64,000 nucleotides of DNA. It comes from Actinokineospora sp. NBRC 105648. Lineage in GTDB: Bacteria > Actinomycetota > Actinomycetes > Mycobacteriales > Pseudonocardiaceae. Made by a program: the position numbers and the translations under genes. Below, in pieces: positions 33,179-33,771 of the stretch. The notes beneath the pieces were generated by a model that was not told the DNA's origin, made no database searches, and worked only from the letters and a program-made list of their open reading frames with translations. The number at the start of each line of letters is the position of its first letter. Positions within the stretch are counted from its first letter, which is position 1. Location: NCBI RefSeq assembly GCF_030269645.1, contig NZ_BSTR01000004.1:186001-250000 (forward strand), written 5' to 3'.

Positions 33179-33267
33179 GGAGAGGTGCCCGGAGCGGCTT
33201 AACGGGTTCCTGTTCTACCAGGAAGGGCCTAGCGCCCACGCAGGTTCGAATCCTGCCCTCTCCGCCA
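33179..33267 (+). tRNA. Class II tRNA-like gene, copy 1 (isotype undetermined, possible CTA anticodon)
   Basis: Acceptor stem GGAGAGG/CCTCTCC (33179-33185 with 33257-33263), D-arm with AGCGGCTTAA loop, variable arm GGGC-CTAGC-GCCC, T-arm GCAGG-TTCGAAT-CCTGC, discriminator G and encoded CCA. This is serine-type class II architecture. The anticodon arm is abnormal: TTCCTG/CAGGAA pairs leave a 6-nt loop, or a 5-bp stem leaves the 8-nt loop GTTCTACC. If U33 is the second T, the anticodon is CTA (amber). A terminator follows at 33268. Confidence 0.65.
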
Positions 33268-33295
33268 AAGAGAGCCCCCTCTGCGGGGCTCTTTT
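33268..33295 (+). terminator. Terminator after tRNA-like copy 1
   Basis: AAGAGAGCCCC paired with GGGGCTCTTTT, loop of 6, ending in TTTT. It starts immediately after the encoded CCA and implies that the tRNA-like gene is transcribed. Confidence 0.8.
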
Positions 33296-33393
33296 CGCTT
33301 TCCCCGCCTACCCGCAACGGAGAGGCCACCCCCACCCACACAAGACCGCAGCGGTGAGGCCGACCCCGCTGGAACTCAAGGCCCGCTACGGAT

Positions 33394-33533
33394 GCTCGAT
33401 CTAGTGGACTCGCTTCGTGTGGGGGGAGAGCACCGCTAAACTTGCCTGGTAGTGGGGATGCCCTTCACCCCACGCTCTTTCCCCACCGCGGTGCTCTAGG
33501 GGCCCCACACGAAGCGAGTTCACTAGATCGAGC
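33394..33533. repeat. Nested long inverted repeat between the two tRNA-like genes
   Basis: Outer arms of 31 nt, 33394-33424 and 33503-33533, match with one mismatch. A middle pair, AGAGCACCGC (33427-33436) with GCGGTGCTCT (33488-33497), and an inner pair, GTGGGG (33452-33457) with CCCCAC (33468-33473), nest inside. A degenerate direct copy of the right arm follows at about 33569-33601 (CGAGGCGAGTCCACCAG). No ORF with coding character occupies 33296-33686. It could fold as a cruciform or structured RNA, or be a MITE-like element. Confidence 0.8.
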
Positions 33534-33686
33534 CCACGCTAGTAACTTGGGCAACGAAGACGGCAACGCCGAGGCGAGTCCACCAGTCCAAGCCCACGAG
33601 CCACCCGCAGCCACAAAAGATCCACAGACCCGTCAGCCACTCATCAGCCCAACATCAGACCCGACTGCGAAACTAGTCCCAGTCAA

Positions 33687-33771
33687 GGAGAGGTGCCCGG
33701 AGCGGCTTAACGGGTTCCAGTTCCACCGGAAGGGCCTAGCGCCCGCGCAGGTTCGAATCCTGCCCTCTCCG
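33687..33771 (+). tRNA. Class II tRNA-like gene, copy 2 (isotype undetermined)
   Basis: Nearly identical to copy 1: the same acceptor, D, variable and T arms. The anticodon arm has drifted to TTCC/GGAA with the 9-nt loop AGTTCCACC (one base shorter overall), so a canonical 5-bp stem needs an A-C mismatch. The position equivalent to CTA in copy 1 reads CCA. The CCA tail is not encoded (CCT). A good terminator follows. It may be a tRNA pseudogene or a non-decoding tRNA-like RNA. Confidence 0.55.

Follow-up and report, generated by a model that had tools for sequence, protein, structure and literature searches.

The window analysed here, a 64,000-nucleotide stretch of the Actinokineospora sp. 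NBRC 105648 genome, carries two class II tRNA-like genes on the forward strand. Both genes are real: the sequence and ARAGORN agree on the pair that a first-pass annotation had placed here. The features of the locus are as follows.

33117 to 33143, + strand: triple direct repeat RTCAR with an 11-bp period, 5' of copy 1
33179 to 33265, + strand: tRNA-like copy 1, with an encoded CCA extending to 33267; 102.1 bits against covariance model R1 (the copy is part of the model)
33207 to 33224, + strand: closed "anticodon" arm of copy 1, TTCCTG-TTCTAC-CAGGAA
33271 to 33295, + strand: terminator-like hairpin after copy 1, 8 bp with a short T run, found by eye and missed by the scan
33632 to 33658, + strand: triple direct repeat RTCAR with an 11-bp period, 5' of copy 2
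33687 to 33772, + strand: tRNA-like copy 2, with an A.C-mismatched arm and no encoded CCA; 99.6 bits against model R1 (the copy is part of the model)
33715 to 33731, + strand: "anticodon" arm of copy 2, TTCCAG-TTCCA-CCGGAA
33780 to 33805, + strand: terminator-like hairpin after copy 2; core stem 33789 to 33801 from the scan, outer stem read from the sequence

Copy 1 consists of a 7-bp acceptor stem, a 4-bp D stem, a closed anticodon arm, a class II variable arm, a 5-bp T stem and G73. The abnormal anticodon arms noted in the first-pass annotation were found in both genes: that of copy 1 has a 6-bp stem and a 6-nt loop, and that of copy 2 is interrupted by an A.C mismatch and has a loop of 5 nt, which the predicted fold reduces to 3 nt. 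An alternative drawing of the copy 2 arm, with 4 bp plus a mismatch and a 7-nt loop, corresponds to the Gly(tcc) call of ARAGORN for 33687–33773, while copy 1 (33179–33267) was called "tRNA-???". GCCA follows copy 1 and GCCT follows copy 2, in agreement with the earlier statement that only copy 1 encodes CCA. Each gene also has its own terminator, as had been described, in the form of a G+C hairpin with a short T run, of which our scan caught only that of copy 2. The fold of copy 2 is weak (z −0.92), and this copy by itself could be decaying. A sigma-70 promoter scan found no promoter. Immediately 5' of copy 1, positions 32716–33110 comprise ~400 bp that are mostly purine (GGAAGG-type) on the + strand.

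Covariance scoring bore out the unusual character of the genes. In a whole-genome run of the Rfam tRNA model (cut-off 29 bits), copy 1 scored 32.6 bits and copy 2 35.5 bits, compared with at least 52 bits for each of the 50 tRNAs outside the family described here that passed the cut-off. Seven genes of the genome formed the low-scoring group (30–36 bits), apart from these 50. A window-wide cmscan at the gathering threshold reported a Leu tRNA only, and neither tRNA-like copy. A DNA search found seven family copies in the genome, 87%–100% like copy 1: two in the window (contig C4), three in tandem on contig C8 and two on contig C22. The two genes are thus not only the near-identical local pair first described, but members of a seven-copy genome family. 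We also looked for a biosynthetic cluster adjoining the window copies, and the neighbours examined were ordinary genes.

A near-perfect palindrome lies between the two genes (33390–33540; 31-bp arms, 97% complementary). It was rejected as part of the system because it is a dispersed repeat: the segment 33394–33533 gave 40 main matches of 92%–100% in the genome (the best 40 of 340 candidates scored), and 10 copies of at least 90 bp occurred in 340 kb of control sequence. Similar palindromes are found beside both C22 tRNA-like sites, giving three such sites in this genome with the window included, which may reflect chance or a common preference for intergenic DNA.

Members from other genomes were compared in an alignment of 63 sequences (60 distinct, window copies included). 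This alignment was fitted to the model and its counts lean towards it, with 97.9% of cells paired (97.5% in the variable helix) and double-sided changes in 119 cells, compared with 28.9 in shuffles. All six pairs of the anticodon arm showed double-sided changes among the 60 distinct sequences of the model-fitted alignment, and a plain MAFFT alignment of 18 sequences showed them in five of six. Over the 63 members there was almost no variation in the acceptor, D and T arms. Compensatory pairs are therefore kept across the family, which argues that it is not decaying.

Folded alone, 60 of the 63 anticodon arms had loops of 3 to 6 nt (4 nt in 38, 3 nt in nine, 5 nt in seven and 6 nt in six), and the remaining three had a 7-nt loop, a 10-nt loop and no loop, respectively; for L171 and L181 the excised segment ran on into the variable arm, so that the 3-nt loop counted for L181 does not belong to its anticodon arm. 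GNRA loops accounted for 18 arms and YNCG loops for 14. The sole 7-nt predicted loop sits in a 30-nt arm. An arrangement of 5 bp and a 7-nt loop could be drawn without mismatch for nine arms, eight of which need the standard 32–38 pair to be open, and for 19 further arms, including that of copy 2, if one mismatch was allowed; 35 of 63 could not be drawn this way even so. Within the genus, the family is present in 5 of 16 genomes, where other arms read TTCCTG-CTCG-CAGGAA and GCCGGT-TTCG-ATCGGC, and one arm ends in GCAA or GCGA. Comparison with a canonical decoding tRNA-Ser found serine identity, but neither the 5-bp stem and 7-nt loop nor a serine anticodon. The triplets CTA and CCA, proposed earlier as anticodons of copies 1 and 2, are unlikely to act as such, and the predicted folds indicate that the RNA as a family is not a decoding tRNA. 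ARAGORN labels its members Arg, Ala, Gly, His, Val, Thr and others, so tRNA counts of carrier genomes may err.

Some members depart from the common form. One 78-nt member (L226:4998-5075) has an anticodon arm of only 9 nt and adjoins a full-length member. Two from Salinispora (L183:2396-2483 and L192:2393-2481) each have an extra base in the T arm, which is otherwise fixed. Multiple or tandem copies also occur, for example, three at G012:C1:3468966-3469267, four at G311:C112:47041-47499, seven in genome G298 and five in G327; dosage may matter.

The serine-type assignment of these non-standard tRNA-like RNAs held across the family. G73, G1-C72, G2-C71 and R4-Y69 were present in 63 of 63 members and C11-G24 in 61 of 63. 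All five are included among bacterial serine determinants, and serine identity in bacteria is independent of the anticodon, as stated in the relevant passages of PMC9976931. In the T stem, A51-U63 occurred in all 63 members, compared with 2 of 46 distinct ordinary tRNA-Ser, a biased sample reached mostly via model hits. In part of PMC4052509, the same pair is counted among the EF-Tu-weak pairs in the non-proteinogenic tRNA-Gly of staphylococci. At the level of sequence, the RNA thus has the weak EF-Tu T-stem pair of a dedicated non-proteinogenic tRNA.

A few protein families recur around members in other genera. One is a PF09924 (LPG_synthase_C) protein (3e-63), whose gene in three genera is separated from the RNA by 8–14 bp. 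A second is a membrane protein of 160 aa that weakly resembles DUF4260, and a third weakly resembles AurF. Aliphatic azoxy clusters are described as encoding VlmA, VlmO (Ady6, with weak DUF4260 similarity) and the ferritin-like VlmB (in part of PMC9379638). According to excerpts of three papers, VlmA transfers serine from Ser-tRNA to an alkylhydroxylamine, VlmO leads to the hydrazine and VlmB to the azoxy group (PMC9379638, PMC12945691, PMC11705231). Residues D51, H82, H110 and D114, reported as essential in VlmO (passages of PMC11705231), were invariant in our seven-protein VlmO alignment and kept in the VlmO of the Actinokineospora genome. We called VlmO by these four residues and VlmA by PF09924.

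To judge co-occurrence, covariance-model searches were set against VlmO calls in two genome sets, in both of which the Actinokineospora genome is counted. Genome-wide searches ran under strict filters, so that RNA counts are minimum values among the candidates scored, and the cut-offs for membership were chosen once the gap separating ordinary tRNAs was apparent (66 bits for the first set, 70 bits for later searches). Among 297 genomes of the taxonomic family, members (≥66 bits) were detected in at least 12, and VlmO in 27, including 12 of the 12 with detected RNA (Fisher P = 2e-14, a value that is too small because the genomes are related). In the genus, the RNA-bearing and VlmO-bearing genomes were the same 5 of 16. 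Among 394 genomes across the class, the RNA was found in at least five (≥79 bits; next match, 66) and VlmO in eight, including 5 of the 5 with RNA (Fisher P = 7e-10, too small for the same reason). Among hits of 44–66 bits to models R1 and R2, all those whose loci were fetched and run through ARAGORN proved to be ordinary tRNA-Ser or tRNA-Tyr and were rejected. In the 15 genomes of the taxonomic family with VlmO and no detected RNA, all seven hits scored at most 60.3 bits and were tRNA-Ser.

Loci were also collected from the VlmO side. A full RNA copy lay within 10 kb in 32 of the best 80 named VlmO loci (36 hits), a share that is no fair estimate because the query was built from RNA-linked VlmO and the 80 are its top matches; an additional locus, L180, has a cut copy within 10 kb. 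The genera with RNA near VlmO include Streptomyces, Salinispora, Nocardia, Rhodococcus, Embleya, Wenjunlia, Allorhizocola and others. For the 38 loci whose fetched stretch contained both the RNA and vlmA, the distance from vlmA to the closest copy was at most 600 bp in 17, compared with 4.4 expected under random placement. The RNA is located directly behind vlmA on the same strand in four loci. For example, it lies 144 bp from vlmA in S. atratus (L155), the species of the elaiomycin ElaO record, although in another strain.

The RNA is nearly restricted to one lineage of VlmA. In a tree of 84 VlmA rows (hits <750 bases dropped), one clade of 62 rows contained 52 RNA-positive rows. Two of the 22 rows outside it, L173 and L146, are in RNA-positive genomes; both fall in clade II, and each genome has a second VlmO locus. 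As for labelling, L232 was marked "no" without a search, and L146 was also marked "no" although G037, its genome, carries a copy next to a different cluster (L100); L173, a like case, was marked "elsewhere". A whole-genome search (cut-off, 70 bits) covered 46 of the 47 remaining VlmO loci, in 43 genomes. Where VlmA loci were restricted to clade II or outer positions (12 genomes), no copy of ≥70 bits was found. Of the other 31 genomes, which include, by exclusion, loci without VlmA in the fetched stretch, 25 had one. In the six copy-less genomes among the 31, a looser search returned only ordinary tRNA-Ser or tRNA-Tyr. No copy was found in six VlmO-bearing genomes of the taxonomic family (G107, G046, G080, G273, G158 and G295), or at two Paraburkholderia loci (L187 and L220) that carry VlmO and VlmA outside Actinomycetota. 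Genomes beyond clade II in which no copy was detected either use ordinary tRNA-Ser, or have a copy that is too divergent or absent from the draft. In three genomes (the one analysed here, G007 and G010) every copy found is more than 10 kb from VlmO, the closest one on the VlmO contig of G010 being ~140 kb away. The RNA is found next to this set of biosynthetic genes in different actinobacterial families.

Seryl-tRNA synthetase (SerRS) genes were found in 10 of 100 VlmO loci, and in none of the 33 VlmO loci of genomes without a found copy. They occurred in three further loci fetched via the RNA itself; that of L238 was confirmed by Pfam, and in L238 and L239 the SerRS gene comes after the RNA. 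This neighbourhood of vlmA and serS suggests that the RNA, once charged, would be used by an aminoacyl transferase outside translation.

The Actinokineospora genome has its own VlmA and VlmO on contig C49 (locus L134), away from the window copies. VlmA (PF09924, 1.5e-59), VlmO (2.2e-67, with D, H, H and D at 51, 82, 110 and 114) and VlmB (61% to the query; Pfam AurF below cut-off) are found together there, which by gene content identifies L134 as an aliphatic azoxy cluster of the vlm type. Their companions are a fatty acid desaturase, a YegS_C kinase (VlmJ type), an MmgE/PrpD protein (VlmK type), an aldehyde dehydrogenase, an acyl-CoA-dehydrogenase-like protein (possibly VlmH), a class III aminotransferase and a ketoacyl synthase. 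VlmJ/VlmK-like pairs are reported to accompany some VlmA groups (in part of PMC9379638).

The tRNA-like genes and this cluster share upstream repeats. Within the 64-kb window, RTCAR triples occur only before the two tRNA-like genes, with one double elsewhere, at 38735. A triple also precedes two of the three C8 copies and one of the two on C22 (a double precedes the remaining copy on each contig), and 24 of 37 upstream regions, the genome's own seven included, have at least a double; the pattern was derived from such regions and matches there by construction, which does not apply to the cluster and control counts. The C49 azoxy stretch contains three triples, whereas none was found in 340 kb of control sequence (17 other stretches), and other repeat periods, from 8 to 20, gave no triples. 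Among VlmO loci (82 of 100), triples were present in 34 of 60 outside clade II and 0 of 22 in clade II. We take these 11-bp-period repeats to resemble SARP operators. The valanimycin regulator VlmI is a SARP, according to a title in the reference list of PMC4052509, and locus L098 contains a BTAD-type regulator gene.

The best reading, which we regard as likely, is that the family is a tRNA-Ser-derived, non-decoding RNA serving as a dedicated seryl carrier that feeds VlmA. It builds on the RNA family and its covarying structure, the closed arm, the identity elements, the repeats, and the co-occurrence and adjacency with vlmA, vlmO and serS. The RNA would be transcribed under a regulator common to it and the aliphatic azoxy pathway, and processed like a tRNA. 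It keeps what SerRS would need (G73, G1-C72, G2-C71, R4-Y69 and a long variable arm) together with the tRNA elbow, and the short stable hairpin closing the anticodon arm would prevent decoding. Serylation would fall to the housekeeping SerRS, with a cluster SerRS (VlmL type) taking its place in some species, and the charged RNA would be kept away from EF-Tu and the ribosome. VlmA, an aminoacyl-tRNA transferase of the LPG_synthase_C/GNAT fold, would then take the charged RNA as donor to form an O-seryl-hydroxylamine, to be converted to the hydrazine by VlmO and to the azoxy group by VlmB.

Other explanations account for parts of these data. The RNA might instead be a regulator of the azoxy cluster, a tRNA mimic acting as a T-box-like ligand, sponge or antisense RNA rather than as a VlmA substrate. 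The upstream repeats common to the RNA genes and the cluster would suit such a role, and the pseudo-tRNA tRNAOther of Bacillus cereus is reportedly regulatory (in part of PMC3399842). However, a T-box or antisense RNA would have to read the arm that varies, the conserved features are the acceptor/T half and serine identity, and vlmA and serS are among the neighbours, which makes regulation unlikely. Of the earlier proposal of a tRNA-like regulatory RNA, the tRNA-like part thus stands, while an aminoacyl-carrier role fits the evidence from vlmA, SerRS and serine identity better than regulation does. We consider it still less probable that the charged RNA is a diverter or decoy, buffering SerRS or protecting the producer while VlmA uses ordinary Ser-tRNA. 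The valanimycin work was done with Ser-tRNA-Ser (in part of PMC12945691) and some VlmO genomes outside clade II have no detected copy, but the adjacency to vlmA and near restriction to one VlmA clade point away from this; azodyrecin biosynthesis, for its part, has been proposed to use Ala-tRNA (in part of PMC9379638).

Decaying duplicates of tRNA-Ser genes, or relics of integration sites, would be consistent with the weak arm of copy 2, the existence of tandem copies and the dispersed palindrome between the window copies. For the family we rejected decay, which is very improbable given the compensatory changes, a near-invariant core over distant families, common repeats and recurrence by the same genes; of the duplicates suggested earlier to be decaying, copy 2 alone, with its weak arm, could be so. 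The recoding or suppressor tRNA (amber or other) of the first-pass annotation was rejected on predicted loop sizes and has almost no probability, since a class II form with G73 and nine arms drawable as 5 bp with a 7-nt loop are set against 3–6-nt loops in 60 of 63 (tetraloops in 38), 35 arms that are never canonical even with one mismatch, and the 9-nt arm.

Bacterial allo-tRNAs and tRNA-Sec are likewise class II and serine accepting. Their acceptor/T lengths are 8/4, 9/3 or 8/5, with a decoding anticodon, and tRNA-Sec has an 8-bp acceptor stem and a UCA anticodon. The azoxy RNA has the arrangement 7/5 (7-bp acceptor, 5-bp T stem) and no standard anticodon loop, which sets it apart from both groups. 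Closer to the carrier reading are the staphylococcal non-proteinogenic tRNA-Gly species (FemX donors), which share extra-translational aminoacyl transfer and A51-U63, but are cell-wall isoacceptors changed at 49-65, 51-63 and 18-19 (as described in part of PMC4052509); in the azoxy RNA the anticodon arm itself is closed, and the RNA is of serine type and tied to an antibiotic pathway. The tRNAOther of B. cereus resembles it as a pseudo-tRNA without function in translation, but has a Trp anticodon, poor aminoacylation (lysine) and a proposed regulatory role (in part of PMC3399842). Similarly, tmRNA is an aminoacylated RNA without an anticodon half (in part of PMC3929946), but one that carries alanine, has an mRNA part and acts on the ribosome. 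With the valanimycin (VlmA/VlmL/VlmO/VlmB), elaiomycin, KA57-A and azodyrecin systems, the likeness is that the RNA travels with vlmA, vlmO, vlmB and sometimes serS; the portions of the azoxy literature drawn on here (PMC9379638, PMC12945691, PMC11705231, PMC4052509) name no dedicated tRNA. Searches within the open-access PMC literature turned up no record whose title or abstract dealt with an RNA of this kind. Dedicated tRNAs set aside from translation are known, and the closed anticodon arm and the antibiotic tie distinguish this family.

More broadly, the family probably represents an anticodon-less class of actinobacterial tRNA that is a pure metabolic serine carrier, co-regulated with antibiotic clusters and often located within them, in which the closed arm and the EF-Tu-weak T stem would bar translation and some clusters would bring their own SerRS. 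A 2014 review described the route that diverts Ser-tRNA from translation into valanimycin as unknown (in part of PMC4052509), and a dedicated non-decoding carrier would answer this question for pathways of the azoxy class. If this is true, an RNA is a member of a biosynthetic gene cluster. Its sequence could then serve as a marker in searches for azoxy clusters of this kind, it would be an RNA part to include when azoxy pathways are moved to other hosts, and it would represent a natural case of a tRNA freed from the genetic code.
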